DNA of 64,000 bases, taken from positions 701,899 to 765,898 of the forward strand of contig DF820463.1 in the NCBI GenBank assembly GCA_000739535.1. The letters run 5' to 3'. The notes under the pieces were generated by a model, which did no database searches, was not told the DNA's origin, and worked only from the letters and a program-made list of their open reading frames with translations. Within the stretch, counting starts at the first letter, position 1; each line of letters opens with the position of its first letter. The position numbers and the translations under genes were made by a program. Positions 855-32,810 of this stretch are shown here, piece after piece. This DNA is from Candidatus Vecturithrix granuli. Lineage in GTDB: Bacteria > Moduliflexota > Moduliflexia > Moduliflexales > Moduliflexaceae.

Positions 855-2081
855 TCAATCAAACACCAACTTCAGCCGTTTCATGCGTTCTTTCATCTCC
901 TCGATAATAATCTGTTCTTGCGCAACGGTCTCAGCTTCAAACGTTACCGAGAAACGAATATACCGTCCGGTGTCATCCCAGGGTACCGTCGAAATCACAG
1001 CTTCTTTCAGCAAAAATTCCGAAAAATCAGACGCGGTCTGAAAACGCACGCCAGTTTCCGTGCCTTGTGGACACTTTACATAACAATAAAAAGAAGCTTT
1101 TGGCTTTCTGGCTGAAAAGCCAAGATCATTCAAGGCACGGGTGAGCAGGTCGAAGCGCCGTGAATATTTCTCACAAATCCCATTTGTAATCTGAGGATGC
1201 TGGAGGGCAAAAATCGCGGCTTTCTGGATCGCACGAAATTGACCGGAATCGGTATTGTCTTTCACCACGCCATAAGCTTTCACGATCTTTGCATTGCCGG
1301 CCAGAAAGGCCAGACGCCAGCCGGTCATGTTGAAGGCTTTGGATAACGAGTGGATTTCGACCCCCACCTCTTTTGCCCCTTCAACCGTGAGAAAACTGAG
1401 CGGTTGATACCCATCGTATGTGAGCGCGCTGTATGCGGCGTCTTGAATGATGATTACATTGTGTTGCAGGGCAAATTCAATCAGGTCTTGAAAAAATGCT
1501 TTTGTGGCGACCTGCCCGGTCGGGTTATTCGGATAATTCACATACATCAGTTTTGCGCGTTTCAGAACCTCCTGAGGAATGGCGGTTAAGTCAGGCAGAA
1601 AATTGTTTTCTTCTCGCAACGGAAGCGGATACACCTCTCCCCCTAAATATTTGGTATAAGTGCCGATAACAGGATACCCGGGAATGGTCGTCAGGGTAAT
1701 GTCGCCGGGATTAATCAGACATAAGGGCAGCAACGCGAGAATGGGCTTTGATCCGATGCCGTGCAGCAGATGTTCAGCAGGATTCAGTCCATCAACCTGA
1801 TACACTTGTTTTAGATACTGAGCGGCCGCCTCTAAAAACTCAGGAATACCATTGTCAGCGTACCATCGGTTTTCAGGTTTGCCAGCTTCCTGCGCCAACA
1901 CCTGAACGATCTCCGGATCCGCGGGACAATCCGGTTCGCCCACGCCCATATCAATCAAGGGAATATGCGGATATTTTTTTCTGGCTTCTGCTTTGGCACG
2001 TTTGATTTTCTCAAATTTATAAATTTCTGTTGATTTCCCAAACTGTGCTCCCCCTATTCTTTCTGCAACGATGATATCCAT
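855..2081 (-). CDS. dapL: LL-diaminopimelate aminotransferase
   Basis: A 408-residue fold-type-I PLP aminotransferase. It converts tetrahydrodipicolinate plus glutamate to LL-diaminopimelate and 2-oxoglutarate in one step of lysine and peptidoglycan-precursor synthesis, in the cytoplasm. Visible landmarks are GVGEPDCPADPEIV near the N-terminus, the cofactor-binding stretch YVNYPNNPTGQ, and the Schiff-base lysine motif SLSKAFNMTGWRL. Length is normal for the family. The start is preceded by GGGAGAG. It is transcribed away from the Nif3-led block at 2450, sharing an AT-rich intergenic region. Because that block contains a DapF-like protein, a role in a diaminopimelate-related catabolic route is possible, but biosynthesis is the default reading. 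Confidence 0.88.
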   Translation of the reverse strand: MDIIVAERIGGAQFGKSTEIYKFEKIKRAKAEARKKYPHIPLIDMGVGEPDCPADPEIVQVLAQEAGKPENRWYADNGIPEFLEAAAQYLKQVYQVDGLNPAEHLLHGIGSKPILALLPLCLINPGDITLTTIPGYPVIGTYTKYLGGEVYPLPLREENNFLPDLTAIPQEVLKRAKLMYVNYPNNPTGQVATKAFFQDLIEFALQHNVIIIQDAAYSALTYDGYQPLSFLTVEGAKEVGVEIHSLSKAFNMTGWRLAFLAGNAKIVKAYGVVKDNTDSGQFRAIQKAAIFALQHPQITNGICEKYSRRFDLLTRALNDLGFSARKPKASFYCYVKCPQGTETGVRFQTASDFSEFLLKEAVISTVPWDDTGRYIRFSVTFEAETVAQEQIIIEEMKERMKRLKLVFD

Positions 2082-2399: not shown

Positions 2400-2449
2400 T
2401 TATGTCAACGTGCATTCCCGAAAAAATGGTTGATAAAAGGAGGCGATTG

Positions 2450-3463
2450 ATGAAAGAAAAAATTTTCGTCAGAGATTTAGTAGAGGTTTTGGATAGTATT
2501 ACGGGAGGAAGGGTACTGAAGTCTCCTCAAGATTTCGCAAGCGGAAAAAATCCGTTTGTTGTTACCAAATCCTCGAACATTCCTGGCAAGGCGGTCACTG
2601 AGACGCCGGGACTTGTGTGCGGAAGTCTGGATCAGGAGATCAAAAAAATTGCGGTCTTGATGACGCTGACCGAAAGCGGAATCGAACTGGCCGGAGCAAC
2701 CGGAGTAGATGCCCTGGTTGCACACCATCCGATTGCCGACGCCGCAAACGCAGGCGGCGTCCTGCTAAGGACCTATCTGGGATTGTACAATGTGGCTGCG
2801 CTGGAACTTCACGAAGCCTTTCATGGCTTGCACCCCGGTATTGCCTACCTTCACGGACATAAAGCGTATCATGTTGACATCAGGTACGGCGGAATTCCGG
2901 GGAATATCCTGTATGTTGGCGATGCGCTGCCGGAAGTCAAGACCGTCGGCGACATGTTGTTTCGATTGGATACGCTTATGGGGACTGAGGTGGAAGAAAA
3001 AGTGCTCCAGAGTGAACGGCAAATTCGGGGGTGTCAGGAAATTCAGGAAACAAGCGTAAGCGCAAGAGGCAGCATCCTTGTTGGCAGCCCTGAAAAACCT
3101 GTGACCAAAGTGATTCATATCTTCCCGCACACCGGTTTTACGCCTGAACACCTGGAAAGGGTCGTGAGTGAACATCCAGGAGCAGACACAATGCTGGCAA
3201 CTATCAGCAGAGTGTATCCCGGGAACCCATTGATCGAAAAAGCTCGCGAACTTGGTCTGAACTTTGTCTGTGGGAACTCGCATGCCCTGGAGATCATAGA
3301 AAACGGCCTGCCTCTGGCCAGGGCGATCAAAATGCACCTGCCGGACGTGGACGTGGTCATTTTCCGGGAAAGACTGACCAGCATCCCGCTGGACAAATTC
3401 GGCGCAAAAGATGTGCAGGAATACGCTAGTTACATTGCTCAAAACTTTTTGATGAAAAAATAA
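2450..3463 (+). CDS. Nif3-like (NGG1-interacting factor 3 family) protein
   Basis: A 337-residue protein from the ATG at 2450, chosen because AAAGGAGG lies just upstream; an in-frame ATG at 2402 has no such site. The central segment DALVAHHPIADAANAGG matches the metal-binding HHP motif of the Nif3/YbgI family. A second conserved area near the C-terminus, around NFVCGNSHALEIIENGLP, resembles the GH...E region that completes the dinuclear metal site. Nif3 proteins form hexameric toroids with a di-metal centre, and their biochemical role is poorly defined. It is the first gene of a block of catabolic genes and sits 26 bases before a Gate-domain membrane protein. Function in this locus is unknown; a hydrolase role is speculation. 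Confidence 0.7.
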   Translation: MKEKIFVRDLVEVLDSITGGRVLKSPQDFASGKNPFVVTKSSNIPGKAVTETPGLVCGSLDQEIKKIAVLMTLTESGIELAGATGVDALVAHHPIADAANAGGVLLRTYLGLYNVAALELHEAFHGLHPGIAYLHGHKAYHVDIRYGGIPGNILYVGDALPEVKTVGDMLFRLDTLMGTEVEEKVLQSERQIRGCQEIQETSVSARGSILVGSPEKPVTKVIHIFPHTGFTPEHLERVVSEHPGADTMLATISRVYPGNPLIEKARELGLNFVCGNSHALEIIENGLPLARAIKMHLPDVDVVIFRERLTSIPLDKFGAKDVQEYASYIAQNFLMKK

Positions 3464-3489
3464 ACGTATAAAGAAAGGAGAATCACACA

Positions 3490-4572
3490 ATGAGTCTTGA
3501 AACCAAAACTGAAGCCAGAGAAAAAAAGATGAAGACGATCGAAATCGTCGGTCTGGTTCTTGTCCTTCTATCCCTATTAGGGCTTATTTTTTACCCCGGG
3601 TTTATCGCTGGCATTTTTGACGCCATGGTGAAAAAAGCCCTTCCCATTATTGTCAACGTGACCCTGACAGGTACTCTCGCAACTGCTGTGATTATCAGCG
3701 TCATGATCGGTCGTATTCTGGAACGCTGCGGATTTACTGATGCGCTTATGCGCATTTTCATTCCGCTCGCCAGAGTGATCAAAGTGAATTCCGCCGTTCT
3801 CATCCCGGCCATTTATAACATTTTAGGCGATATCAACGCGGCAGGCAGGATAGGCGGCCCCATCCTGGTGAAAGCTGGGACCACAAAGGATGAGCAAAAA
3901 ATTGCCATCTGTACGATGGTTCAATCCCAGCAGTCCTTTTCGACCTTTATGTTTGGTCTGATGGCTCTAACTGCGGTCGGTGCCAGGGCGTTCCTTGTGA
4001 TTGTGATTGCAGTGTTCGCACCATTAGTTGTGGTGCCGTGGATCATGAGGCTGACCATTTGGCGCGACACCAGGGCTGTATCGCTCGAAGAAATGCCGAG
4101 TTTTACGCCGACCACCGCGCCGCTGGCGACGGTTTTCGGAGCAGCCAGAGAAGGCGCGGAACTGGTGTTCCTGCTCATTATCCCCGCGTTTGCTGTGGTC
4201 TTCTCGATTATCGGCGGTCTTGAATATATTGGCGTCTGGAAACCGATAGAAAGCGGCTTGACGGCTCTGCTCTCAGCCCTGGCGATTGATCCCACGACGG
4301 GGATGGTGAGTATCCTGGCCTCGCCCACGCTCGCCATGTCTCAGTTGAAGGACGTCGCCGCTGGTATGTCGCCAAAGCTTGTCATCGGCTCTTTTGTTCT
4401 GGCAGCCTCAGGTTTCCCATTATCGGTGATTTTCGGACAAATCCCGGTCATCTGGTCCGGCGCGACAGACCTGAATCACCGCGAAGCTATGGGCGCCGCG
4501 GTGATCGGGGCTGTGATGAGGTTGATCACCGCCGGAGTGGTGGCACTGTTACTTACGCCTCTACTGGCGTAA
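3490..4572 (+). CDS. Gate-domain (nucleoside-recognition family) membrane protein
   Basis: A 360-residue polytopic membrane protein with roughly 8-10 hydrophobic segments. Two similar internal halves, one with NVTLTGTLATAVIISVMIGRIL and one around LVFLLIIPAFAVVFSIIGG, suggest the duplicated Gate (nucleoside-recognition) fold. A strong GAAAGGAGA site precedes the ATG. It lies directly behind the Nif3-like gene and ahead of the FAD oxidoreductase. Such proteins are found with transport and sporulation functions and often lack a known substrate. Here it probably handles the substrate or a product of the locus, by context only. Confidence 0.6.
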   Translation: MSLETKTEAREKKMKTIEIVGLVLVLLSLLGLIFYPGFIAGIFDAMVKKALPIIVNVTLTGTLATAVIISVMIGRILERCGFTDALMRIFIPLARVIKVNSAVLIPAIYNILGDINAAGRIGGPILVKAGTTKDEQKIAICTMVQSQQSFSTFMFGLMALTAVGARAFLVIVIAVFAPLVVVPWIMRLTIWRDTRAVSLEEMPSFTPTTAPLATVFGAAREGAELVFLLIIPAFAVVFSIIGGLEYIGVWKPIESGLTALLSALAIDPTTGMVSILASPTLAMSQLKDVAAGMSPKLVIGSFVLAASGFPLSVIFGQIPVIWSGATDLNHREAMGAAVIGAVMRLITAGVVALLLTPLLA

Positions 4573-4658: not shown

Positions 4659-4712
4659 TAGCCGTGTCAATCTTTATGACGAATGCTGCACTATAAAAAG
4701 GAGGAGCATAAA

Positions 4713-5987
4713 ATGGCAAAAGTTGTTATTGTTGGGGGTGGCTGGGCAGGATGTGCATCTGCTGTAGCCGCAGCCAAAAAGCAGGTAGAAGTTGTGGTAT
4801 TAGAGCGAACGGACATGCTCCTGGGAACCGGATTGGTCGGCGGTATTATGCGTAATAATGGACGTTTTACCGCTACCGAAGAAGCTATTGCCCTGGGGTG
4901 CGGCGATCTGTTCCAACTGACAGACCAGGAAGCCCGGCACAAAAACATCGAATTTCCTGGCCATAAACACGCCTCACTTTATGATGTCGCTACCATGGAG
5001 CCTACCGTGAAAAAATACCTCCAGGATCAAGGAGTAGAAATCCATTTTCAAGCCCGGGTCGCCGAGGTTGAAATGGAAGGCAAAACCATCAAAAAGGTGA
5101 TGACTGCCAAAGGTGATGCCTTTAACGGCGATGCCTTTATTGACACCACGGGTACTGCGGGTCCCATGAATAATTGTACGCGTCATGGCAATGGGTGCGC
5201 GTGCTGTATCTTGCGCTGTCCCAGCTTTGGCGGACGGGTGAGTTTGACAGCCGAAGCGGGCGTGGAAGAAATTATTGGCGTCAAAAAAGACGGATCCGTC
5301 GGAGCGATGAGCGGTTCCTGTAAACTGTTCAAAGAATCCCTGGATTCTGCGATTGTGGAGGAATTGAATCGCACTGGCGTTGCAATCATTCCCATTCCTC
5401 CTGATCTGATGGCGAGTGAGGAAAAATTAACAATGAAAGCCTGCCAGCAATATGCGTTAAAAGAATTTGCTGAAAATATCATCCTTTTAGATACTGGACA
5501 CGCCAAGCTGATGACCCCCTATTTCCCTCTGGAACTCCTGCGCAAGATACCCGGGATGGGAAATGCACGCTATGAAGATCCTTACGCTGGCGGCCTGGGA
5601 AATTCCATGCGCTATATGGGCATGGCTCCGCGCAATGATGCGCTTCAGGTCGAGGGGGTTAATAACCTCTTCTGCGCCGGAGAAAAAGCCGGCCTTCTGG
5701 TCGGACATACCGAAGCCATCGTCACAGGCAGCCTCGCCGGATATAATGCCGCTTGCCAGGCCAGGAGCGAAGAACTCCTCATTCTTCCGGATGCTCTTGT
5801 GATCGGCGATGCCATCGCCTTTGTTCGCACCGAGATGCAGACGGAGGAAGGGAAAACCAAAAAATATACATTCTCCGGATCGGTGCTCTTTGAAAGAATG
5901 AAACAGAAAGGGTATTACAGTACAAACCTGGATGAAATCAGAGGTCGGGTTGCAAATGCAGGTTTAATGAACGTGATGCTTGGATAA
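4713..5987 (+). CDS. FAD-dependent oxidoreductase with a Cys-rich motif
   Basis: A 424-residue flavoprotein from the ATG at 4713, which follows AAAGGAGGAG (an in-frame ATG at 4683 lacks a site). The N-terminus VVIVGGGWAGCASAVAAA is a Rossmann dinucleotide-binding motif followed by VVVLER for ribose binding. A second FAD contact region is near NLFCAGEKAGLLVGHTEA. Residues 155-169 contain five cysteines in the pattern C-x6-C-x-CC-x3-C within NGCACCILRCPSFGG, which could bind a metal or Fe-S cluster or form redox disulfides. It probably oxidises an amino acid or intermediate of the locus; substrate unknown. It lies between two membrane-protein genes of the same block. Confidence 0.72.
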   Translation: MAKVVIVGGGWAGCASAVAAAKKQVEVVVLERTDMLLGTGLVGGIMRNNGRFTATEEAIALGCGDLFQLTDQEARHKNIEFPGHKHASLYDVATMEPTVKKYLQDQGVEIHFQARVAEVEMEGKTIKKVMTAKGDAFNGDAFIDTTGTAGPMNNCTRHGNGCACCILRCPSFGGRVSLTAEAGVEEIIGVKKDGSVGAMSGSCKLFKESLDSAIVEELNRTGVAIIPIPPDLMASEEKLTMKACQQYALKEFAENIILLDTGHAKLMTPYFPLELLRKIPGMGNARYEDPYAGGLGNSMRYMGMAPRNDALQVEGVNNLFCAGEKAGLLVGHTEAIVTGSLAGYNAACQARSEELLILPDALVIGDAIAFVRTEMQTEEGKTKKYTFSGSVLFERMKQKGYYSTNLDEIRGRVANAGLMNVMLG

Positions 5988-6028: not shown

Positions 6029-7396
6029 ATGGTTCAAATCACTTTATCTCACTGGGTCTTTTTAATTGTCATGCTTGCGGTGATCGTCGCTATGATCATG
6101 CGCAGAGGAGTGGTTCTCATTGCCGTTATCGGCGTTTTTTTCGTGGCTCTGTCTTATCATAAAAACCTTGTTGCTACCATCCAATCAATGTTTAATGCGT
6201 TTATGGAGGCAGGTATAGATCTCTTTGACATCATGCTGGTCATTGCTTTAATGGTCGCTATGTTGAAAACCATGGAAAAGATGGGGGCCGACTATTTAAT
6301 GGTGGCGCCGATTAAAAAAGCACTCAACAAACCAACGGTTGCGTTCTTTACGCTGGGGATCATTATGTATTTAGCGGCTTTGTTCTTCTGGCCTACTCCG
6401 GCGACAGCCCTGGTAGGTACAATCCTGATTCCGGTCGCTGTGAAAGCCGGATTGCCTGCAATCGTAGCGGCAATGAGTGTGAATATTTTGGGACATGGCA
6501 TGGCTCTTTCCGGTGATTTGATTATTCAGGGCGCGCCAGCTATCACTTCGAGCAATGCAGAGGTTCCAATAGAAAGCGTTTTGATAAAAGGCGGCATTCT
6601 TTCGGTCACCGCCGGCCTTGTTGCCATTTTGGTCGCCTTCTTGATGGTGAGAAAGGAAATTGCAAAAGGAGGTTCCGGAGAAAGCGTTCTGGCAGAGGCT
6701 CAACCTCGAGAATCTTATACCCGTGGGGCGCGTTTCATGGCCATTGCTGTTCCCATAACCTATTTAGCCTTACTGATCTATATGATCATTTCTAAGACCC
6801 GAGGAGGAGCTGCTACTGCTCTCTTAGGAGGCACTGCTGCAATCTTTATCACCCTTGGTTCGATTCTGGCCTATGGGGATAAAGCTTTGGAATCCTCCGG
6901 AGATTTAATCCGCGATGGTTTAATGTTCGCAATTAAGATTTTTGCGGTCGTCATTCCGATCGCAGGCTTCTTCTTTACAGGTGCACCGAGTATGGCCCCT
7001 AAAATCTTAGGCGAGGGCGCGCCGGGTTTTCTGTTTGATTTGGGCAATGCCTTTGCCAATATTATGCCGCTTTCTAAAATTCCGGTTGCGATAGGCGTGA
7101 TGATTACCGGAATTATTACCGGCCTTGATGGCTCCGGTTTTTCCGGATTGCCCCTGGTCGGCTCTCTGGCCAATGCACTAGGGACTCCTCTGGGAATTGA
7201 TGTGGCAGCCCTGGCATCCTTAGGACAGGTCGGGGCAGTGTTCTCCGGCGGCGGCACGCTGACAGCCTGGGCTTTTGGTCTGGTCGCTGTGGCTGGCGTC
7301 TCAGGCGTATCGCCTCTGGAATTGGCCCGCAAAAATTTTATCCCGGTAGCCTGCGGTCTTGTCGCCGCAACTATTGTAGGAATTATGATGATGTAA
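6029..7396 (+). CDS. permease, GntP/citrate-transporter-like
   Basis: A 455-residue integral membrane protein with about 11-12 hydrophobic segments and two related halves typical of the ion-transporter superfamily (GntP, DcuC, CitMHS type). Signature-like stretches are FWPTPATALVGTILIPVAVK in the first half and GLDGSGFSGLPLVGSLANAL in the second. AAAAGGAGGG precedes the ATG. It is likely the importer of the organic or amino acid degraded by the surrounding genes. The exact family and substrate cannot be fixed by eye. Confidence 0.62.
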   Translation: MVQITLSHWVFLIVMLAVIVAMIMRRGVVLIAVIGVFFVALSYHKNLVATIQSMFNAFMEAGIDLFDIMLVIALMVAMLKTMEKMGADYLMVAPIKKALNKPTVAFFTLGIIMYLAALFFWPTPATALVGTILIPVAVKAGLPAIVAAMSVNILGHGMALSGDLIIQGAPAITSSNAEVPIESVLIKGGILSVTAGLVAILVAFLMVRKEIAKGGSGESVLAEAQPRESYTRGARFMAIAVPITYLALLIYMIISKTRGGAATALLGGTAAIFITLGSILAYGDKALESSGDLIRDGLMFAIKIFAVVIPIAGFFFTGAPSMAPKILGEGAPGFLFDLGNAFANIMPLSKIPVAIGVMITGIITGLDGSGFSGLPLVGSLANALGTPLGIDVAALASLGQVGAVFSGGGTLTAWAFGLVAVAGVSGVSPLELARKNFIPVACGLVAATIVGIMMM

Positions 7397-7633: not shown

Positions 7634-8494
7634 ATGATGCGGTTTTGGAAATATCACGGATTAGGGAATGATTATCTGGTCATGCCCCCTGAAGACATCT
7701 CCAAAGAACTGACGCCAGCGCAAATTCGCTTAATCTGCCATCCACACTATGGCATTGGCTCCGATGGGTTGCTGATCGGCCCATTCGACGCTGAAGAACA
7801 AACCTTCAGACTCCGCTTATTTAATCCTGACGGCGGTGAATTTGAAAAAAGCGGCAACGGATTGCGCATTTTCGCCCGATACCTCTGGGATATGGGCTGG
7901 GTCCAGAACAAACCTTTTCATATTCTGACCCCCGGCGGGAAGGTCACTGCGCAGGTGTTTGAAGGCGGACGAAGGGTAACGGTCGAAATGGGGCAGGTGA
8001 GTTTTCACAGCAGCCGTATCCCGGTCGCCGGGCCGCCGCGTGAAGTGTTGCAAGAATCAATCGAGGTGCAGGGCCGGGAGTTTCGTTTTTGCGCAGCAAC
8101 CATCGGGAATCCGCACTGCGTCATCTTGTGCGACGATATTTCCCGCGAACTCGCGTGCAGCATAGGGCCGCACGTTGAAACGGATCCGCGCTTTCCCAAC
8201 CGCACCAACGTGCAATTTTTGAAAGTGCTCGACCGGGCAACCATTCAGATTGAAATCTGGGAACGCGGTGTGGGCTACACGCTTGCTTCGGGCAGCAGCA
8301 GCAGCGCCGCCGCTGCGGTCGCCCATAAATTAGGATTGTGCGATTCCCATATCACGGTCAGAATGCCCGGCGGCGAACTTGACATTCAGATTGATCCCGA
8401 TTATGCCATTACGATGACAGGCGCAGTCACGAAAATTTGCGAGGGACAATTTGATAACGAAGCCTTTGACGCCCTTAACGTAATTGACAATTGA
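7634..8494 (+). CDS. DapF-like epimerase homologue with both catalytic Cys replaced by Ser
   Basis: A 286-residue member of the diaminopimelate epimerase fold. The N-terminus WKYHGLGNDYLV and blocks IGSDGLL, FNPDGGEFEKSGNG, GNPHCV, NVQFL and ERGVGYTLASGSSSSAAA align by eye with DapF. In DapF the two catalytic cysteines lie in the CGNG and ACGTG motifs. Here both are serine (Ser73 and Ser219, counted from the first of two adjacent ATGs), so a normal two-base cysteine epimerisation is unlikely. AGGAGAAAC precedes the start. In related folds, loss of one cysteine accompanies dehydratase activity (trans-3-hydroxyproline dehydratase). Gene context with an aminomutase suggests action on an amino acid. 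It could also be an inactive or binding-only paralogue. Confidence 0.75.
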   Translation: MMRFWKYHGLGNDYLVMPPEDISKELTPAQIRLICHPHYGIGSDGLLIGPFDAEEQTFRLRLFNPDGGEFEKSGNGLRIFARYLWDMGWVQNKPFHILTPGGKVTAQVFEGGRRVTVEMGQVSFHSSRIPVAGPPREVLQESIEVQGREFRFCAATIGNPHCVILCDDISRELACSIGPHVETDPRFPNRTNVQFLKVLDRATIQIEIWERGVGYTLASGSSSSAAAAVAHKLGLCDSHITVRMPGGELDIQIDPDYAITMTGAVTKICEGQFDNEAFDALNVIDN

Positions 8495-8553: not shown

Positions 8554-8985
8554 ATGGATCCTTACGCCAATAAGATGTTTTCCAAAGATCCGTATTATAA
8601 GAAAATCGATCTGGTGAGCCATGTGGTCGCCATTCTGGACGCTACGGTTGAAAAACGCGGACTTGAAATTATCCAGCCTCCCACGCGAGTGGTGAACAAG
8701 GATGAGGTGCATGAATTGATCCTGACCGATCAGACGACGCTATCTGAAGATCGGCGCGTTGATCGTATCGCCTATCTGGCGTTCGTCTGTTTTGAAAACA
8801 GCGGCGTCCTTCAACGCGGGGATAAGTTGATATTCGGTGATGTGGAAATCGGAACAATTTTAGGATTCGATGAAGCGCATCTGCCGAATCATCAAAATAT
8901 CGTCCTGCACACCAATAACTTACAAACCGGGCGTGAATGGGGCCTGAACCTGCACGCCCAATTAGTGTTTCATAAACCTGAGTAA
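8554..8985 (+). CDS. unrecognised 143-residue protein of the catabolic block
   Basis: A soluble protein of 143 residues from the ATG at 8554, preceded by GAGAGAGG; longer readings run through the family B repeat. There is no signal peptide or membrane segment. Notable stretches are KRGLEIIQPPTRVV, a middle DRIAYLAFVCFENSGVL and a C-terminal FGDVEIGTILGFDEAHLPNHQNI. The last looks like a small beta-barrel. I do not recognise the family. The length is close to accessory subunits such as 2-amino-4-ketopentanoate thiolase alpha, but I see no clear match. It sits tightly in the operon between the DapF-like and PLP genes, so it is probably a subunit or an enzyme of the same pathway. Confidence 0.6.
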   Translation: MDPYANKMFSKDPYYKKIDLVSHVVAILDATVEKRGLEIIQPPTRVVNKDEVHELILTDQTTLSEDRRVDRIAYLAFVCFENSGVLQRGDKLIFGDVEIGTILGFDEAHLPNHQNIVLHTNNLQTGREWGLNLHAQLVFHKPE

Positions 8986-9094: not shown

Positions 9095-10558
9095 ATGAAA
9101 AATTATAAATTCAAATACGAAATGTACAAAGCGTTGCAGTTAGCTATTCCCGAAATCTACAAAGAAGCTGCGGAAGCCGCCGATGAAATCGGCATTCCGA
9201 AAGAGGAACGCGGGAAATTCGGGTTGACCGGGGCCATTTCCGGTTGTCATGGCATTCCCCACAAAGAAGTGCGCGAAGCCTTAGAAAAGACCTCGACCCA
9301 GATTATTCCTAACAGCGTGCTGGATGAAGAACTGCGGTACGTGGTCAAGTCCTATTATGGCGATGAATACGATGCGCTCGCGGTCAATACCTGTGAAGCC
9401 GCGCTGTGGGTCTCGTTTGATACCTTAGCCACTCCGCCGATGTGCGGCAGAGGCGACAACTATCGCGCCCGCTACATTATTCCTTATGAAAAACATCTGC
9501 ACCATCACGGCGGCTACGGCAGACCCTTTCCCGGACGCTATAAAGACATCTTTGCCGACCGAGGCAATACCGCCGGCGAATTGGGATTCTACGGCAAGCG
9601 CCAGAACAACCTTGATATGATTATCGCCAAACTGGTCGGCGCCGATTATTCCTGCCATGGGATCAAATATCATCCGGCCGTGCAATTGACCGGCGTGGAT
9701 GCCGAAGCTTCAGCGAAACGTATTCGGAAAATTGCGAAACAGCATGCGACCTTACTCACGGCGATTGCGTCGCTCGGTTACGATACTCCCGGTTACGGGT
9801 ACAAGGAAAAAGCGGCTGACGGCGCGCCGTTGCTGCAAAAACTGTTGGGCGATGTGGCCGCAGATTTCAATGTGCCCTATATTGTGGATAACGCCTGGGG
9901 CGTGCCGTTTATCGGCACGGATATTCGCAAAACCGGCGCGGATGTGATCCTGTACAGCATGGATAAAGCCGCCGGGAGCGTCACCGCCGGACTCATCATC
10001 GGCAAAGAGGAAGCTCTGGTGCAGTTACGGCGGGCTTTAGGCACCCACGGCGACCGTTGGGGCACCGGCACGTCGCACGGTAAAGCTGCGTATGTGACCA
10101 TTGATCCAGGTAAAGAAGGACTGGTCGGAGTCATTGCCGCGCTCAAAGTCTTGCTTGAACACCCGGAACGTGTGACAAAACCGATTGACGAACTGTATCA
10201 GATTGTGGTAGAAGAATTTGGAAAGATCGATCCTAAAATTCGAAAAGATTTCAGCTTTGCCAAATCCTATAACTCCGGCGCAGTAGAAATCAACTATGAA
10301 GCGAGCTGGCAAGAAGGCGGCAATTGCATTCCGATTTTCTCCATCGAGGATATGTACTCCGGCACCAATATTTTCCAGACCGGGACAAGCAAAATGGGAA
10401 TTATCCCCACGATCGCGTATGACGGGAACATCTTCATCTCCCCAGGCTTAGGCACAACAGATTTGGATGGCAACCTGATCGAAGAAAAAATGCGCTGGGC
10501 TGTGAAAGGTATGGTGAAATTAATCGAGATCGTTTGCCGCAAAATTGGCATTATCTAA
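9095..10558 (+). CDS. fold-type-I PLP-dependent enzyme, SelA/lyase-like
   Basis: A 487-residue cytoplasmic enzyme. The central part has the order seen in fold-type-I PLP proteins: a Gly-rich cofactor region (LTGAISGCHGIPH), an Asp contacting the pyridine ring in IVDNAWGVPF, and a probable Schiff-base lysine in YSMDKAAGSVTAGLIIG. The SxDK-x-xG arrangement resembles SelA and D-glucosaminate-6-phosphate ammonia-lyase type proteins. A HLHHHGGYGRPFPGRY stretch is distinctive and may bind substrate or metal. AAGGAG precedes the start. It lies immediately upstream of the aminomutase genes, so an amino-acid lyase or aminotransferase role is plausible. The exact reaction cannot be told. Confidence 0.68.
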   Translation: MKNYKFKYEMYKALQLAIPEIYKEAAEAADEIGIPKEERGKFGLTGAISGCHGIPHKEVREALEKTSTQIIPNSVLDEELRYVVKSYYGDEYDALAVNTCEAALWVSFDTLATPPMCGRGDNYRARYIIPYEKHLHHHGGYGRPFPGRYKDIFADRGNTAGELGFYGKRQNNLDMIIAKLVGADYSCHGIKYHPAVQLTGVDAEASAKRIRKIAKQHATLLTAIASLGYDTPGYGYKEKAADGAPLLQKLLGDVAADFNVPYIVDNAWGVPFIGTDIRKTGADVILYSMDKAAGSVTAGLIIGKEEALVQLRRALGTHGDRWGTGTSHGKAAYVTIDPGKEGLVGVIAALKVLLEHPERVTKPIDELYQIVVEEFGKIDPKIRKDFSFAKSYNSGAVEINYEASWQEGGNCIPIFSIEDMYSGTNIFQTGTSKMGIIPTIAYDGNIFISPGLGTTDLDGNLIEEKMRWAVKGMVKLIEIVCRKIGII

Positions 10559-10637: not shown

Positions 10638-10904
10638 ATGCCGGAAGAACCCAAACTGGCTGAGATTGACCCTTTTGCCCGCATTGTTGATGTCATGGAT
10701 ATCGAAACCTTTTTTGCGTGTTCTAGCCAGGAAGAAGGAGAACAAGTAGCTGCCGCCCTGATGCACAAATTGGGCCTGACAAATTACGATATTGTGTCAT
10801 TCGTTTTCCACAAAATGGGAGCGCGCGTCCGAATTCGCGCCACCTTCAATCGTCCGGGCGAACACTACCCCTGGCTGGGGAGTGAATTGACAATGGAGAA
10901 TTGA
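10638..10904 (+). CDS. small subunit resembling the KamE dimerisation domain
   Basis: A protein of 88 residues from the ATG at 10638; no good ribosome binding site is visible because the inverted repeat abuts the start. The pattern (a beta strand, EEGEQVAAALMHKLGL, then two strands VSFVFHKMG and VRIRATFN) resembles the N-terminal dimerisation domain of the lysine 5,6-aminomutase beta subunit, which there is fused to the B12 domain. Here it stands alone and the B12 domain is on the next gene. It ends 5 bases before the large subunit. The assignment rests on general pattern and context, so confidence is moderate. Confidence 0.5.
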   Translation: MPEEPKLAEIDPFARIVDVMDIETFFACSSQEEGEQVAAALMHKLGLTNYDIVSFVFHKMGARVRIRATFNRPGEHYPWLGSELTMEN

Positions 10905-10909
10905 GAATT

Positions 10910-12748
10910 ATGGAACAAAACTCGACAAAACGCATTCTCTTAGTTCCGCTCGATCCCGTACACGATGTCGCTGTAAAAATTATCAACCGAAAGCTGCGGC
11001 AGCGCAATTTTAACACCTTACTGCTCGAACCGGATTTGCCGATAGAAGAAATTTGTGCAACAGCCGTAAAATATCAGCCTGATTTTCTGTTGGTGAGCCG
11101 TACCATCGGCTATGGCGTGGGAGAATTATTGAGCAAATTTATTGATCAGCTTGAACTGGCAGGCATCCGCCGACGCGCCAAAATCATCCTCGGCGGAAAA
11201 GCCATCAAACCCGAATTGGCAGCGGAACTCGGTTTTGATGCCGGTTTTGGCAGCAATACCGATTACAATGAAGTGGTGGCCTTTATTGAAGGCCATGAAT
11301 TTGTGCGCCCTAATCCGGCTTTGCGCGTCAAAAAAGACATTACGCACGGTTACACCTACAATGTTCATCACACGCTGATTCGCGAATATCTCGAAACCAT
11401 CACAGATCAAATTTTGCAATGGGCGTCCGACTATACATCGCCAGGCGTGGAACGCGCTAATCTTGTGCAGGCCTATTTGCAAAAGTATCGCGACTGTCTT
11501 GAAGATGTTCGCTTAGAAGGCGAAACCTTACGACAATATCTGGAGTTCAGCGATGATGTGATCCAGGCGTACTATCAATCCGGCGCCATCCCCAAAACCG
11601 TTAAAAAAATTGACAAACAAGTGATTCGAGAATTCATCGCCTTACATAAGCGCATGAATGCGGCGATCGATTATTCCTATCGCTCCATGCAGTTCCAGCG
11701 CGAAAAACCCCTGGTGTTCGTTCAATACGGCACCGGCTGCCCGTTGATGGATATTGAGCATATTAAGGCGTGTGAAAACTGGGGGGCCGATGGGATTTTT
11801 CACTTTGATCCTGCCTGGGGGGCGCGTACCGAAGGGTTTATGTCGGGCTATTTAGGGCATGAAGCGGATGGCACGATTCTGACCAAAGAAAATCTGGCCA
11901 GTATCAAAAATGTGATCAACGACTCCACCATCTGGTCGGTGCGTGCACATCGCGGTTTAAACACGCCGGAAACGGTGGTGCTTGCCGGCGAGTTAGGGGC
12001 CGATTTAACCAAAATCAATATTGTCTATGGTTCGTTAAACGGCGGTACGGATCCGGCGCGGCTCACGGTGGACGGAGTCAAAAGCATCAAACTCGCGGCT
12101 GAGTATGGTTTGCCTTTTGATGTCGTTACCAATGAAGAACTTGGCGGCGTTCCGGCGTTTAAGGCTTTTGCCGGCATGTTGATTGTCAGCTATCTGGCCT
12201 TGAAGTGCGGCGCGCGGCCGATTTTGAAGCCGCTGTTCTGCTATTCCCCGGATGTGATGATTCAGGGTTACATGGAAACCAATTACCTCGATTATAATGC
12301 GGCCAAAATCCTGGCCCTGCGCAGCATCATTGACGCGCCGATCTGGCCCGGAGAACCGATTGGTTTTATGACTCATTCCGAAGAACGGGTGCAATCAGCC
12401 ATGGCCACCGCCCTGCACGCGCTGCTCAGTATCAGCCTTGATGTAGATGCGATCACGATCGCTTCAACTGATGAAGCCTATTCGCGCGGTCCCATTTCAG
12501 CCCATGCGCGTCTCGACACCTTAAACGCGGTCAGAGAAGTTTTTCGCTTCTGGGGCAGCAGCAAAATCCAAATCAATGCCGCTATCCTGAGCATGAAAGA
12601 CCAACTGTGCGACGGCATCGAACAGACTTTAAAAGTGGTCTGCGAACATGGCGATTTTGTCTCAGCCCTGAATACCGGATTGTTAGGCACCAGGCAGGAT
12701 GGCGCAAACCCGGGACGAGCCGGGCGCAACACCTTGATCAAACGATGA
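10910..12748 (+). CDS. B12-dependent aminomutase/mutase-like protein, N-terminal B12 domain plus TIM barrel
   Basis: A 612-residue protein from the ATG at 10910. Residues 1-130 form a Rossmann-like cobalamin-binding domain: RILLVPLDPVHDVAVKII carries a His18 in the place of the cobalt-ligating histidine (canonical DxHxxG, here DPVHDVA), followed by FLLVSRTIGYG and IILGGKAIK. Lys28, ten residues after the histidine, is near the place of the PLP lysine of lysine 5,6-aminomutase. From about residue 250 a TIM-barrel follows, with YGTGCPLMDIEH, WGARTEGFMSGYL and the late DEAYSRGPISAHARLDT. WGARTEGF resembles a motif of the KamD alpha subunit, and glutamate mutase MutE is the other relative to consider. 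It overlaps the next gene by ATGA. Substrate unknown. Confidence 0.68.
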   Translation: MEQNSTKRILLVPLDPVHDVAVKIINRKLRQRNFNTLLLEPDLPIEEICATAVKYQPDFLLVSRTIGYGVGELLSKFIDQLELAGIRRRAKIILGGKAIKPELAAELGFDAGFGSNTDYNEVVAFIEGHEFVRPNPALRVKKDITHGYTYNVHHTLIREYLETITDQILQWASDYTSPGVERANLVQAYLQKYRDCLEDVRLEGETLRQYLEFSDDVIQAYYQSGAIPKTVKKIDKQVIREFIALHKRMNAAIDYSYRSMQFQREKPLVFVQYGTGCPLMDIEHIKACENWGADGIFHFDPAWGARTEGFMSGYLGHEADGTILTKENLASIKNVINDSTIWSVRAHRGLNTPETVVLAGELGADLTKINIVYGSLNGGTDPARLTVDGVKSIKLAAEYGLPFDVVTNEELGGVPAFKAFAGMLIVSYLALKCGARPILKPLFCYSPDVMIQGYMETNYLDYNAAKILALRSIIDAPIWPGEPIGFMTHSEERVQSAMATALHALLSISLDVDAITIASTDEAYSRGPISAHARLDTLNAVREVFRFWGSSKIQINAAILSMKDQLCDGIEQTLKVVCEHGDFVSALNTGLLGTRQDGANPGRAGRNTLIKR

Positions 12749-13749
12749 AGACCATCGGAATTGTCGGTATTGCCAAAAACACGGGCAAAACCACGACAAC
12801 GAACGCACTGATCGAGTATCTTTATCAACAGGATGCCAAAATCTGCGTCACTAGCATTGGCTACGACGGTGAAGAAATTGATAATATCACCGCTCTGCCC
12901 AAACCCCGCATCAGTTTGAATCCGGGGACATTGGTGGTGACAGCTTCAGACTGCGTCGCACCTCAGGCTGAAAGCTATCGAATTTTGAGGCAGACGGATA
13001 TTCACACGGTTCTGGGCAATATTCAGATCTGCCAGACGGAAAAACCGGTGAACGCCATTGTCGCAGGGCCCAAAACCGGCGATGATCTGCAACGGGTAAT
13101 GGGGATGCTTCAGGATTTTGCCTGTGACGTCCTGCTGGTAGATGGCGCGTTGAATCGCGTGGCCCCGTTTGCCAAGGTTGAGAACCTGGTAATCGCGGTT
13201 GGGCCGGCCGCCAATCATGATCTTGACGAACTTGCCAGGGAAATCAAACTGATTGTTGATTTGACCAGGCTGACGGTTTGGCAATGTAAGGGCGATCCCT
13301 TCCCTTTTTCGGGGAAAAGCGCGGCCGGCTCGCAGGGCGTGGACGTTGATCCGCAAAATAACGCTGTTTGGGTGCATGGCCCGGTGTATGCGACCACGCT
13401 CCAGAAGAAGATCGCGGAGTTCCGCCAGAGCACGCCTGTTTCTGCGCTGATCATCGCATCGGCTCTACATCTGTTAAGCGGCAGTGAATACCGCGAAATC
13501 CAGCGGTTTATGCAACATCTTCGCCAGGCCAGCATTGATCTGTTTGTGCAAAAACAGATTCGGCTTTTAGGACTCACGATCAACCCGGCCTATCCGGCTC
13601 CCGTGAAAAAAGGGCTGAACATATACCAATTACGCTATGTGGACGAGCAGATCTTCAAAGAAAAATTGCAAGCATTACTCGATCATGAAAGTTTGATGAT
13701 CAACGTCAAAAATGAGAGCGCGGAACCTCTGCTTGAACGGGCCGTGTAA
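12745..13749 (+). CDS. P-loop protein, probable mutase reactivase (KamB-like)
   Basis: A 334-residue cytoplasmic protein starting at 12745 in an ATGA overlap with the mutase stop, implying translational coupling. The Walker A motif is VGIAKNTGKTTTTNALIEYL at the N-terminus. Other landmarks are SIGYDGEEID, the KPRISLNPGTLVVTA stretch and CDVLLVDGALNR as a likely Walker B region. From memory this pattern (AKNxGKT, then DGE, then KPxI...GTL.TA) matches the lysine 5,6-aminomutase reactivase KamB. Such chaperones exchange damaged cobalamin using ATP. The coupling to a B12 mutase supports the role. It is the last gene of the block. Confidence 0.65.
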   Translation: MKTIGIVGIAKNTGKTTTTNALIEYLYQQDAKICVTSIGYDGEEIDNITALPKPRISLNPGTLVVTASDCVAPQAESYRILRQTDIHTVLGNIQICQTEKPVNAIVAGPKTGDDLQRVMGMLQDFACDVLLVDGALNRVAPFAKVENLVIAVGPAANHDLDELAREIKLIVDLTRLTVWQCKGDPFPFSGKSAAGSQGVDVDPQNNAVWVHGPVYATTLQKKIAEFRQSTPVSALIIASALHLLSGSEYREIQRFMQHLRQASIDLFVQKQIRLLGLTINPAYPAPVKKGLNIYQLRYVDEQIFKEKLQALLDHESLMINVKNESAEPLLERAV

Positions 13750-17801: not shown

Positions 17802-18368
17802 ATGATTGAAATTCGCTGGCATGGCCGGGGCGGACAGGGCACCGTGACGGCAGCCAAAATGCTGGCTGATGCGTCGCTGCAAGGCGGCAAATATGTGCAA
17901 GCGTCGCCGGAATACGGCGCGGAACGCATGGGCGCGCCGCTGCGCGCGTTCAACAGAATCAGCGATGAGGAAATTTTTCTGCATTGCAGTATTACCAATC
18001 CGGACATCGTCGTCGTGGTTGATCCCTCGTTGGTCACACAAGCGGCCGTCACGGAAGGCGTGAAAGATTCGACGACCTTTGTAGTGAACAGTCCTTTATC
18101 AGCTCAGGAAGTTCGTAAACTGTTAAAATTTAATGCGGGCAAGGTATTTACCGTTGACGCCACCAAAATTGCCCTGGAAACTTTCGGGCGCAATATTCCC
18201 AATACGCCCATGTTAGGCGCATTGATCCAGGTCACACAGATTCTGGAAAAAGACACACTGGTGACGCAGCTCAAAAAGAGCTTACAAAAAAAGTTTGGCG
18301 ACAAGGTGGTTCAGCAGAACGTTAACGCCGTCGAACGCGCATTTCAGGAGGTAACAAGCGATGAATGA
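17802..18368 (+). CDS. porG: 2-oxoacid:ferredoxin oxidoreductase, gamma subunit
   Basis: A 188-residue gamma subunit of a four-subunit 2-oxoacid:ferredoxin oxidoreductase, which decarboxylates pyruvate or a related acid to acyl-CoA with reduction of ferredoxin. The start IEIRWHGRGGQGTVTAAKML is the hallmark glycine-rich motif, followed by EYGAERMGAPLRAF. TAAGGAGGAG precedes the ATG. The 3' end overlaps the ferredoxin subunit gene by 8 bases. Gene order gamma-delta-alpha-beta is typical of pyruvate- and 2-oxoisovalerate-type enzymes. Pyruvate is the likeliest substrate but is not proven. Confidence 0.88.
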   Translation: MIEIRWHGRGGQGTVTAAKMLADASLQGGKYVQASPEYGAERMGAPLRAFNRISDEEIFLHCSITNPDIVVVVDPSLVTQAAVTEGVKDSTTFVVNSPLSAQEVRKLLKFNAGKVFTVDATKIALETFGRNIPNTPMLGALIQVTQILEKDTLVTQLKKSLQKKFGDKVVQQNVNAVERAFQEVTSDE

Positions 18369-18666
18369 AACCTGGCAAGAACTCCCGATTGGCGGATTGA
18401 TCGTTGAGCCGGGCAACGCCCTGGGCTATCATACGAGCGGATGGCGCGCTATGCGCCCGATTTACCATCCCGAACATTGCATCCAATGTTTCAAGTGTTG
18501 GATCTTCTGTCCTGATGCGGCCATCGTCGTGAAAGATGAACAAGTCGTCGGGATGAATCTGGATTATTGCAAAGGCTGTGGGATTTGCGCGTATGAATGT
18601 CCCGGAAAAAAAGGCAGCAAAGCGATCACAATGGAAGAAGAAGCCAAATTTTTACATGAAGATTGA
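18361..18666 (+). CDS. porD: 2-oxoacid:ferredoxin oxidoreductase, delta (ferredoxin) subunit
   Basis: A 101-residue subunit with two 4Fe-4S clusters: HCIQCFKCWIFCPDAA and YCKGCGICAYECP. It moves electrons from the thiamine-diphosphate site to external ferredoxin. GGAGG precedes the ATG inside the porG reading frame. Length and position match the family. Confidence 0.9.
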   Translation: MNETWQELPIGGLIVEPGNALGYHTSGWRAMRPIYHPEHCIQCFKCWIFCPDAAIVVKDEQVVGMNLDYCKGCGICAYECPGKKGSKAITMEEEAKFLHED

Positions 18667-18677
18667 GGAGATAAATT

Positions 18678-19859
18678 ATGCGTGAAGTGATAGCAATTAC
18701 AGGAAATGGCGCAGCAGCCCAGGCCATGCGGCAAATCAATCCTGATGTGTGCGCGGCGTATCCGATTACGCCTTCGACGCAGGTGATGGAAGATTTTTCG
18801 CAGTTTGTGGCTGATGGGCTGGTGGACACCGAATTAATTACCGTTGAAAGCGAACATAGCGCCCAGAGCGCGTGCGTGGGCGCGGCTGCGGCCGGCGGAC
18901 GGGTGATGAACGCCACATCAGCCAATGGCTTAGCCCTGATGTGGGAAATTCTCTATATCGCCTCGGGTAGCCGCCTGCCGATGGTATTAACCGTCGCGAA
19001 CCGCGCCTTAAGTTCGCCGATTAATATTCATGCGGATCACGGCGATCAGATGGGATGCCGCGACGCCGGCTGGATTCAGTTCTATTCTGAAAACGCCCAG
19101 GAACAGTATGATAATCTGATTCAAGCCATTCCGATTAGCGAGGCGATGAATGTGCGGCTGCCAGTGATGGTGGGCATGGACGGCTTTATTATTTCCCATT
19201 CGATTGAACGCCTGGAAATGCTGGAGGATGCGGAAGTGAAGGAGTTTATCGGCGAGTATAAACCGCATTACCCCTTGTTAGATATTCACAATCCTGTGAC
19301 GTATGGGGCAGTGGCCTTCCACGATTATTATTTTGAATGTAAACGCCAGCAGATTGAAGCCATGCAGTGCGCCAAAGACGTGATTCTGGAGTTTGGCAAA
19401 AAATACGGCAAATTAAGCGGACGGCAGTATGGGTTCTTTGTCCCATACAAACTTGAGGACGCTGAAATTGCGATTGTGGCGATTGGCTCGGCCTGCGGCA
19501 CCACGCGGGTCATGGTGGATCAACTGCGGCAAAAAGGAATCAAAGCCGGACTCTTGAAAATTCGCTGTTTCCGACCTTTCCCGGCGCAGGAAATCGCCGA
19601 GGCGCTGACTTCAGTCAAAGTCGTCGCCGTACTAGATCGTTCCGATACTTTCGGCGGTCAGGGCGGCCCGCTCTTCTCTGAAATTCGCTCTGCCCTGTAT
19701 GATGCTCCTGTCCGACCTCAGATTCTCAATTTCATCTATGGCCTCGGCGGCCGAGAATTAGATCTGGCTCTGGTCGAAAAAGCCTTTGCCAAAGCCCAAA
19801 ATGTTGCGGAAGGCGCTGCAATCGCGCCAGTTGTGGAATATCTTGGTGTCAGAGAGTAA
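18678..19859 (+). CDS. porA: 2-oxoacid:ferredoxin oxidoreductase, alpha subunit
   Basis: A 393-residue alpha subunit. Characteristic stretches are NGAAAQAMRQINPDVCAAYPITPST near the start, VESEHSAQSACVGAAAAGGR and ATSANGLALMWE, and near the C-terminus DRSDTFGGQGGPL. GAGGAG precedes the ATG 11 bases after porD. Together with porG, porD and porB it forms the heterotetramer. Confidence 0.9.
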   Translation: MREVIAITGNGAAAQAMRQINPDVCAAYPITPSTQVMEDFSQFVADGLVDTELITVESEHSAQSACVGAAAAGGRVMNATSANGLALMWEILYIASGSRLPMVLTVANRALSSPINIHADHGDQMGCRDAGWIQFYSENAQEQYDNLIQAIPISEAMNVRLPVMVGMDGFIISHSIERLEMLEDAEVKEFIGEYKPHYPLLDIHNPVTYGAVAFHDYYFECKRQQIEAMQCAKDVILEFGKKYGKLSGRQYGFFVPYKLEDAEIAIVAIGSACGTTRVMVDQLRQKGIKAGLLKIRCFRPFPAQEIAEALTSVKVVAVLDRSDTFGGQGGPLFSEIRSALYDAPVRPQILNFIYGLGGRELDLALVEKAFAKAQNVAEGAAIAPVVEYLGVRE

Positions 19860-19860
19860 G

Positions 19861-19945
19861 ATGTATCGCGAAATTCCATTTCGCGGCCTTGCTCGAAGAG
19901 GGAAAGATGTACAGCGAAATTTTATTTCGCTGCCTTGCTCGAAGA
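19861..19945. repeat. pair of short palindromes inside the por operon
   Basis: Two units, TCGCGAAATTCCATTTCGCG and CAGCGAAATTTTATTTCGCTG, each followed by CCTTGCTCGAAGA, lie between porA and porB. They are an AT-richer relative of the palindromes at 7449-7625. Confidence 0.65.
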
Positions 19946-20006
19946 AACGAATACGTGATGTATGATGCGGTATGAACGCATGACGCATGACGTATTGAGA
20001 AATATT

Positions 20007-20969
20007 ATGGCAATAGATGTGAACAAAGTCACGCTGAAAGACATCAAAAAGATCGCCTCAACCAAAGCGGATCAGTTGACGAGTGGTCACCGACTTTGCC
20101 CTGGCTGCGCGGCAGGCACGATTTTCCGGCAAGTTCTGGCGGCGGCGGAACATCCGCTCGTGGCGGCAGTAGCAACCGGGTGTTTTGAAGTTTCGACCAC
20201 GATTTATCCTTATACGGCCTGGAACATTCCCTATATCCACAATGCCTTTGAAAATGTCTCGGCCACGATTTCCGGGGTTGAAGCCATGTATAAATCCCTC
20301 AAAAAACGCGGTAAACTGCCGGTGGATGAAGAGATCAAATTCCTGGCAATTGGCGGGGATGGCGGTACCTACGACATCGGGCTGCAATCTCTTTCAGGCG
20401 CGATTGAACGCCGCCACAATTTTCTGTACATCTGTTACAATAACGGCGCGTACATGAATACTGGCATTCAACGCTCCAGTGCCACACCCTTCGGGGCCAA
20501 TGCCACCACCAGTCCGTCAGGCAAAGTGATTCCGGGCAAATTACAATTCCCGAAAGACCTGACTGAAATTGTCATCGCCCATGAACCGGTGTATGCGGCG
20601 CAGGCCAGTCCGAGTCACTGGCAGGATTTGATGACCAAAGTCCGCAAAGGGTTGGCGGCCGAAGGTCCGGCGTTTATCAATGTGATCTCCTCCTGTAACC
20701 GCGGCTGGCGCATCCCTGCAGAGCAATCCGTTGAAATCAACCAAAAAGCTGTTGAATGCGGGTTCTGGCCGCTGTACGAGTATGAAGACGGGCAATATAC
20801 CCTGACCTATACTCCCAAAACCAAGCAGCCAGTTGCTGAGTGGATGCAGTTGCAAGGCCGCTTCGGCCACCTCTACAAACGCGAGCCGAACAAAGCGATC
20901 ATTGACCAGGTGCAGGAATACGTTGACCAACGTTGGGAACGCCTGCTCAAACGCTGCGGCAAAGCCTGA
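20007..20969 (+). CDS. porB: 2-oxoacid:ferredoxin oxidoreductase, beta subunit
   Basis: A 320-residue thiamine-diphosphate-binding beta subunit if begun at the ATG at 20007; an in-frame ATG at 19962 is also possible and neither has a strong ribosome binding site. HRLCPGCAAGTIFRQ near the N-terminus carries the first cluster cysteines. GGDGGTYDIGLQ...YNNGAYMNTG is the cofactor-binding motif. A repeat pair separates it from porA, so its expression may be uncoupled from the first three genes. Confidence 0.88.
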   Translation: MAIDVNKVTLKDIKKIASTKADQLTSGHRLCPGCAAGTIFRQVLAAAEHPLVAAVATGCFEVSTTIYPYTAWNIPYIHNAFENVSATISGVEAMYKSLKKRGKLPVDEEIKFLAIGGDGGTYDIGLQSLSGAIERRHNFLYICYNNGAYMNTGIQRSSATPFGANATTSPSGKVIPGKLQFPKDLTEIVIAHEPVYAAQASPSHWQDLMTKVRKGLAAEGPAFINVISSCNRGWRIPAEQSVEINQKAVECGFWPLYEYEDGQYTLTYTPKTKQPVAEWMQLQGRFGHLYKREPNKAIIDQVQEYVDQRWERLLKRCGKA

Positions 20970-30766: not shown

Positions 30767-31065
30767 AGCAAGAAAAAACGAGCGGCGTCAAATAGTGAGC
30801 TTCTGGGCAACCAGCACTTCTTCCCCGTTCGCCTTTTAAAAAAGTTGATTCATGTAGCCAAATGATCTAATCGAAAAATATTGTGGAGCATGAAAATTTT
30901 TTGTCAATAGAAATTCATCATCGTTCTGGGAATTGCTAATTTTCTTGACACCGCTTTCATAAATACACATAAAGGAAACGAGAAAGAAATGAAGCAATTC
31001 GTGAACTCTTATAATAGAAACGTACCACGCACCAGAAAAGTGTGCAGCGCGTTTTTATAGCGATT

Positions 31066-32619: not shown

Positions 32620-32638
32620 ATGCGATCAGTTTAAAAAT

Positions 32639-32807: not shown

Positions 32808-32810
32808 CTT

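Follow-up and report, generated by a model that had tools for sequence, protein, structure and literature searches.

The window analysed here, a 64,000-nucleotide stretch of Candidatus Vecturithrix granuli contig DF820463.1, carries on its forward strand a pair of adjacent genes for the two subunits of a predicted adenosylcobalamin (AdoCbl)-dependent mutase. The first gene (10638–10904) encodes a small protein of 88 residues, and the second (10910–12748), 5 bases further on, a large protein of 612 residues if translation begins at the ATG; an alternative TTG start at 10901 is also possible. A gene for a KamB-like protein begins at 12745 and overlaps the stop codon of the large-subunit gene by 4 bases in an operon-like manner. 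An Rfam scan of the window gave one tRNA only and no cobalamin riboswitch near the operon.

The large protein consists of a B12-binding Rossmann domain (residues 1–130; PF02310, E = 5.4e-10) followed by a KamD-type triosephosphate-isomerase (TIM) barrel, an N-terminal fusion already recognised in a first-pass annotation of this DNA. Its best NCBIfam match is KamE (NF052385, 1.4e-13), whose 51.1 bits fall short of the cut-off of 280, while the OraE-type model NF040743 gives 28.4 bits against a cut-off of 800. In profile comparison, the Rossmann domain aligns best with KamE (3.6e-19, 99 columns); neither Pfam nor NCBIfam matches the barrel at E < 1. The AlphaFold2 model, built from an 80-row alignment, has a predicted local distance difference test score (pLDDT) of 89.5 and a predicted template modelling score of 0.85. 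Its top Foldseek match is KamD (1xrs_A, 1.1e-18), and VIA-align superposes the two with a Z of 33.1 over 387 residues at 18% identity; glutamate mutase E (GlmE; 6h9e_B, Z 27.2) is the second-best barrel family, and OraE gives Z 26.8. The barrel profile matches KamD with E = 1.3e-6 over 409 columns and OraE with 1.6e-3. Because KamD and OraE match each other far more strongly (4.9e-32) than the barrel matches either, the new barrel looks like an outgroup to both, judged from pairwise profile scores rather than from a tree. GlmE was rejected as the nearest sequence family, since its hhalign E of 0.079 is no better than that of the negative control, an unrelated pyridoxal phosphate (PLP) enzyme profile (E = 0.08 over 12 columns); PF06368, the GlmE family, has no match in the genome of the window.

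The small protein resembles the dimerisation domain of KamE and OraE. The Pfam model for this domain, OAM_dimer (PF16554), stays below threshold (E = 0.078; 13.8 bits against a cut-off of 25), and the profile of the small protein aligns with KamE in register over 31 columns at 8.1e-5, the control giving 0.098. For its AlphaFold2 model (pLDDT 88), the first six rows in VIA-align are all KamE/OraE dimerisation domains, with modest Z of 6.9–6.3; the next row has 5.8, dodecins lie at about 5.5, and the best Foldseek E is 0.024. This modest structural match agrees with the in-register KamE profile match and with the gene order, bearing out the earlier reading of the gene as a separate KamE-like dimerisation protein.

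A barrel search of 385 genomes gave five full-length matches, including that of the window's own genome. The five-member alignment, scanned against 84,980 species genomes, gave 242 pattern matches, of which 113 are relatives; we analysed the best 80 of the 113 and fetched 79 distinct loci. The relatives come from Bacillota, Thermotogota, Atribacteria, Chloroflexota, Verrucomicrobia, Treponema, Bacteroidetes, Ignavibacteriales and Delongbacteria, and a search for plasmid copies of the mutase found none. Each of the 79 matches begins no later than residue 9 and ends no earlier than residue 609, so every member of this set has the Rossmann domain ahead of the barrel. The small gene lies directly upstream in 78 of the 79 (76 by BLAST, plus loci L050 and L081, whose contigs start within it); L080 lacks a small gene next to the mutase gene. 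A KamDE or OraSE ortholog of the usual kind, its genes re-cut by assembly or annotation, would fit the resemblance of the B12 domain to KamE, but this idea is refuted by the domain order shared by all 79 full-length relatives, and we regard its chances as negligible. In addition, a search of the window's entire genome gave no PF09043 match at E ≤ 1e-3, and one relative's genome (G082) holds KamD, OraE, OrtA and the new mutase together, so that the new mutase probably has a different, third role.

In KamDE, the barrel chain is accompanied by a separate chain of dimerisation and Rossmann domains, and in OraE the domains share one chain, as described in excerpts of PMC3958899. The OraE order, barrel–dimer–Rossmann, is visible in the alignments made here. 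The order of the new family, a separate dimerisation domain and then Rossmann–barrel, is unlike both, and can be pictured as the OraE order split between the dimerisation and Rossmann domains, with the barrel shifted to the end. With KamDE (PDB 1xrs, 8t0v, 9q1a) the new proteins share the KamD-type TIM barrel with N-terminal helices, the fold of the dimerisation domain, a Rossmann domain nearest to that of KamE, a KamB-type reactivase gene and two active-site residues, Tyr263 and the glutamate at the Glu338 position of D-ornithine 4,5-aminomutase (OAM). They differ in that the dimerisation domain is a protein of its own, the B12 domain is fused ahead of the barrel, the loop with the PLP lysine is missing, Arg184, Ser189, Ser238, Arg268 and Asn299 are replaced, and the scores lie far below the family cut-offs. 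The three domains are likewise homologous to those of OAM (OraSE; PDB 3kow–3kp1), whose Glu338 and Tyr187 are conserved; here the differences are the domain order, the absence of Lys629, the replacement of His182 by Lys368 and of Arg297 by Gly485, and the OrtA/OrtB pathway, which is not seen beside the new mutase. PF16554 describes the fold of the small subunit, which occurs here as a free protein of 88 residues scoring below the Pfam cut-off. By sequence, the barrel is described by no Pfam, NCBIfam or PDB entry, and we found neither a known family with such an architecture nor, in a literature search of open-access papers, which does not prove absence, a paper on the family. The family is thus in the same superfamily as the lysine and ornithine aminomutases, its novelty lying in the architecture and the changed cofactor site, and it almost certainly represents a third branch of B12 mutases in the KamD/OraE superfamily, in line with the third arrangement proposed in the first-pass annotation.

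To locate the cofactor ligands, we used three MAFFT alignments of 80 new, 8 KamD and 3 OraE sequences, together with the PLP ligands of KamD and OAM given in excerpts of PMC3958899. Five of the six KamD ligands are replaced in all three alignments: Arg184 by Asp300 (78 of 80 sequences), Ser189 by Ala305 (79 of 80), Ser238 by Arg348 (all 80), Arg268 by Gly or Ala, and Asn299 by Glu or Asp (79 of 80), the last column being possibly off by one because the OraE rows have no Asn there. Only Tyr263 is kept, as Tyr373, in all 80. An hhalign alignment of the barrel with KamD is concordant for Arg184, Ser238, Tyr263 and Arg268. Furthermore, the loop that bears the PLP lysine in KamE (Lys144) and OraE (Lys629) is deleted in the new family, and no lysine stands in its place.

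The residues expected to handle AdoCbl are kept. Specifically, D15, P16, V17, H18 and D19 are invariant in the 80 sequences, and Glu522, equally invariant, occupies the position of OAM Glu338, where all eight KamD sequences and the OraE row used also have glutamate. OAM Glu338 acts in Co–C homolysis, according to excerpts of PMC4413051. The first-pass annotation had pointed to His18 in DPVHDVA and to Lys28 ten residues on, implying a PLP lysine. His18 is borne out; Lys28 is present in the window, but only 18 of 80 sequences have Lys there and 36 have Gly, so this role was rejected. The His-to-Lys spacing of KamE and OraE is 11 residues (His133–Lys144, His618–Lys629), not 10. Lys23 is invariant and aligns with KamE Asp138, and we keep it only as an unlikely PLP lysine. 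On the barrel side, Lys368 (80 of 80) takes the position of OAM His182, a carboxylate contact; every sequence has both Arg345 and Arg348, and 72 of 80 have Arg306. Glutamate mutase needs no PLP. It grips its substrate with three arginines, as stated in excerpts of PMC9545868.

With the AdoCbl residues kept and the PLP ligands and loop gone, the enzyme is most likely an AdoCbl mutase without the canonical PLP site, a site that has probably been lost. Since both this site and the PLP lysine appear to be missing, the rearrangement most likely proceeds without PLP used in the known manner, as the ligand replacements suggest; whether it works without any PLP is an evenly balanced question. The earlier label 'aminomutase subunits' is doubtful for the same reasons (an unconserved Lys28, a deleted lysine loop and five of six barrel ligands replaced), although the proteins are members of the fold family. 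Several points weigh against this reading: the ligand mapping consists of alignments only, at about 18% identity; PLP could be bound to Lys368 in an altered orientation; and KamB is known from PLP-dependent aminomutases. These points lead to an alternative that we consider unlikely but not far-fetched, an aminomutase using both PLP and AdoCbl to shift an amino group, in which PLP would be re-oriented on Tyr373, held as an aldimine by Lys368 and bound at its phosphate by Arg345, His347 and Arg348. The invariance of Tyr373 and Lys368, the position of Lys368, the KamB-type reactivase near 57 of 79 relatives, and KamD as the closest of the solved structures compared with the barrel would suit it. 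Against it stand the deletion of the KamE/OraE lysine loop and the occupancy of the Arg184, Ser189, Ser238, Arg268 and Asn299 positions by Asp, Ala, Arg, Gly or Ala, and Glu or Asp, respectively.

The mutase genes have a conserved neighbourhood. Because 44 of the 79 loci are at least 21 kb long and the remainder end at contig ends, the following counts are lower bounds; they come from direct BLAST unless stated otherwise, and all-against-all clustering of open reading frames (ORFs) is lower for some (small subunit 63, PLP enzyme 61, DUF6917 55). A fold-type-I PLP enzyme lies near 62 of the 79 relatives, KamB near 57, DUF6917 near 56, a flavin adenine dinucleotide (FAD) enzyme near 42, RidA near 32 (30 by clustering) and a permease near 20, and an FCD-type regulator is found in 44 loci by clustering. 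Six of eight genomes in which the mutase lacks an adjoining KamB gene carry one elsewhere. The PLP enzyme resembles SelA and DgaE, its PDB profile match being DgaE 7lc0 (4.9e-5, over a short stretch). At one locus (L083), the segment between DUF6917 and the PLP enzyme contains prpB, prpC and prpD together with a gene for an AceE-like E1. In Firmicutes, SpmA/SpmB and DacF-like proteins also occur as neighbours, which we take to be sporulation synteny and left uncounted.

Several neighbours belong to diaminopimelate metabolism. In particular, meso-diaminopimelate dehydrogenase (DDH, TIGR01921) occurs in 9 of the 79 loci, on the same strand, 1.1–2.5 kb from the mutase and in five phylum-level groups. 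As background, DDH exceeds its cut-off in 5 of 192 genomes, including the mutase-bearing G082, and by our own arithmetic about 0.01–0.02 loci with both would be expected by chance. DapF lies directly ahead of the small gene in L021 and L024–L026 and is also upstream in the window, the LD-carboxypeptidase LdcA follows kamB in L088 and L098, and LysA was found by BLAST in seven loci, two of them weak (33%). Together with the conserved neighbours above, this suggests that diaminopimelate or a similar amino acid is broken down to 2-oxobutyrate, with diaminopimelate itself, or a compound of its type, as a tentative substrate whose chances we put somewhat below even.

In the scheme that follows from these features, AdoCbl would be bound base-off/His-on through His18 of the Rossmann domain, which would close over the barrel so that Glu522 could assist Co–C bond breakage. 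A glutamate-mutase-like 1,2-shift of a carbon group may follow, the group being held by Arg345, His347, Arg348, Arg306 and Lys368, and KamB would serve as the reactivase of the new mutase. The mutase would most likely act on diaminopimelate or its 2-amino-6-oxo derivative to yield a methyl-branched skeleton; the SelA/DgaE-like enzyme would then cleave the branched product, and RidA would hydrolyse the enamine, leaving 2-oxobutyrate and pyruvate. Such a route would account jointly for DDH, DapF, LdcA, the PLP lyase, RidA and the propionyl-CoA genes. In the window, genes for a 2-oxoacid:ferredoxin oxidoreductase, a possible outlet for 2-oxoacids, lie 4 kb downstream, with a sensor kinase between them and the mutase cluster. 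A third-branch AdoCbl mutase without canonical PLP use on a diaminopimelate-type route is our best explanation overall, one that could equally turn out right or wrong. A version that we hold to be improbable has a PLP-free B12 mutase, descendant or ancestor of the PLP-using aminomutases, open an undescribed anaerobic diaminopimelate route. There, DDH, DapL or the FAD enzyme would make 2-amino-6-oxopimelate, an oxalyl shift (glycyl on diaminopimelate itself) would give 2-amino-4-methyl-5-oxoadipate or its amino form, and the SelA/DgaE-like enzyme would release 2-oxobutyrate and 2-aminoacrylate, from which RidA would form pyruvate.

Other observations count against a diaminopimelate route. Only 9 of 79 loci have DDH, and the window lacks both DDH and RidA; methylcitrate genes occur in one locus (PrpC by BLAST) and E1 in three related ones; and chemical reasoning is the basis for proposing a carbon shift on a diaminopimelate skeleton. 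Moreover, the Verrucomicrobia genomes concerned have no LysA above the cut-off other than the one beside the mutase, which also scores best; the Thermotogota genomes have no DapF besides the neighbouring copy; and DapL is the only gene over the cut-off in the genome of the window. As sole or best copies, LysA and DapF may be housekeeping neighbours, and we no longer count them as strong evidence for diaminopimelate.

If all diaminopimelate enzymes were such neighbours, the enzyme could be a glutamate-mutase-like carbon-skeleton mutase of another amino acid, a reading that fits LysA, DapF and DapL as main or only copies in several genomes, and one that we judge rather unlikely. Like GlmES (PDB 6h9e, 1cb7), whose barrel fold is similar (Z 27) and second-best by structure, the new mutase may shift a carbon group without PLP; the arginine-rich site of GlmES may have a counterpart in Arg345, Arg348 and Arg306, and invariant Arg and His replace PLP ligands in the new family. 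GlmES, however, keeps its B12 domain on a separate subunit, and the new family has no sequence-profile signal to it, as the control comparison above indicates; DDH within 2.5 kb of the mutase in nine loci of five phylum-level groups also speaks against mere housekeeping. We take MutL, not KamB, to be the companion of glutamate mutase. Less probable again is a 2,4-diaminobutyrate 3,4-mutase, whose product, 2,3-diaminobutyrate, would lose ammonia on the SelA/DgaE-like enzyme and yield 2-oxobutyrate through RidA. Diaminobutyrate is the next lower homologue in the series from lysine and ornithine, of which G082 has the KamD and OraE enzymes beside the new mutase; the DgaE-like enzyme and RidA suit a beta-elimination, the propionyl-CoA genes of L083 would fit, and the product would be the same if a glycyl group were shifted without PLP. 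This substrate, however, leaves DDH, DapF and LdcA near the mutase unexplained and thus accounts for fewer neighbours, and no anaerobic 2,4-diaminobutyrate route was found in our literature search. Furthermore, 2,4-diaminobutyrate inhibits OAM, according to excerpts of PMC4413051.

Few classes of AdoCbl rearrangement enzymes are known, and of those with a KamD/OraE-type barrel only two are known to use PLP. A third branch, built from the same set of domains in a different order and lacking most of the PLP site, would reveal how PLP was acquired or lost within this superfamily. The cluster points to an amino-acid pathway in many cultured and uncultured anaerobes (Sporomusa, Heliobacterium, Tepidanaerobacter, Pseudothermotoga, Levilinea) and places DUF6917 and the PLP enzyme in a context that can be tested; the use of diaminopimelate from dead cell walls by anaerobes would also become directly testable.

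Features of the mutase locus and its surroundings in the window
Feature	Coordinates	Strand	Evidence
Small subunit, free-standing KamE/OraE-type dimerisation domain, 88 residues	10638..10904	+	KamE profile match 8.1e-5 and predicted fold; PF16554 below cut-off
B12-binding Rossmann domain with DPVHD motif, N-terminal part of large subunit	10910..11299	+	PF02310 5.4e-10
KamD-type TIM barrel with N-terminal helices, C-terminal part of large subunit	11327..12745	+	KamD profile and structure match
His18 codon, predicted cobalt ligand	10961..10963	+	80/80; aligned with His of KamE DxHxxG
Lys23 codon, helix following His18	10976..10978	+	80/80
Lys28 codon	10991..10993	+	Lys 18/80, Gly 36/80
Asp300 codon, KamD Arg184 position (PLP phosphate ligand)	11807..11809	+	Asp 78, Asn 2 of 80
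Arg348 codon, KamD Ser238 position (PLP pyridine N ligand)	11951..11953	+	80/80
Lys368 codon, OAM His182 position (substrate carboxylate contact)	12011..12013	+	80/80
Tyr373 codon, kept stacking tyrosine (KamD Tyr263, OAM Tyr187)	12026..12028	+	80/80
Glu522 codon, OAM Glu338 position (Co–C bond homolysis)	12473..12475	+	80/80
KamB-like P-loop reactivase	12745..13749	+	NF052386 2.5e-54, 184.4 bits vs cut-off 210, residues 4–179
Fold-type-I PLP enzyme, remotely SelA/DgaE-like, putative lyase	9095..10558	+	TIGR01437 3.2e-7
DUF6917 protein	8554..8985	+	PF21891 5.8e-45
Diaminopimelate epimerase DapF	7634..8494	+	TIGR00652 8.7e-68; better scoring of the genome's two DapF
Permease without Pfam family	6029..7396	+	relatives near 20/79 mutase loci
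FAD enzyme, GidA/FAD-oxidoreductase type	4683..5987	+	PF01134 5.3e-33
LL-diaminopimelate aminotransferase DapL, possible but unproven partner	855..2081	-	NF004937 1.9e-200
2-oxoacid:ferredoxin oxidoreductase subunits	17802..20969	+	TIGR02175 3.8e-66, NF040682 1.3e-147, NF008819 1.3e-101

DUF6917 looked by eye like an OrtA-like thiolase subunit, a candidate that was dropped (hhalign E 0.091, 14 columns). It also occurs in three genomes for which the barrel search of 385 genomes listed no match (G097, G114, G251), at loci L136 (3521–3958), L137 (6739–7311) and L138 (8773–9243); the adjoining gene at L138 is threonine-synthase-like (TIGR00260 1.6e-62). Pseudothermotoga has, some 15 kb from the mutase, a second cluster (L140, 4072–8252) that encodes a YheO-like regulator, DUF6917, the PLP enzyme and a DAO-type oxidase and also contains an ORF that is RidA-like by eye. 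A D-cysteine-desulfhydrase-like PALP enzyme is present in the neighbourhood of L021, L041 and L077.

Elsewhere in the window, a Nif3-like protein and a membrane protein are encoded at 2402–4572, and the same pair lies downstream of kamB in L069 (56% and 62% identity). Two genes at 31042–34223 are presumably an FdrA and DUF1116 pair, judging by resemblance. The translations at 42005–51994 resemble what we take to be gyrA, gyrB, recF, dnaN and dnaA products; the GC skew changes near this segment, possibly marking a replication origin. At 54859–60126, a protein of 1755 residues has many YD-like repeats and is of the RHS type by eye.

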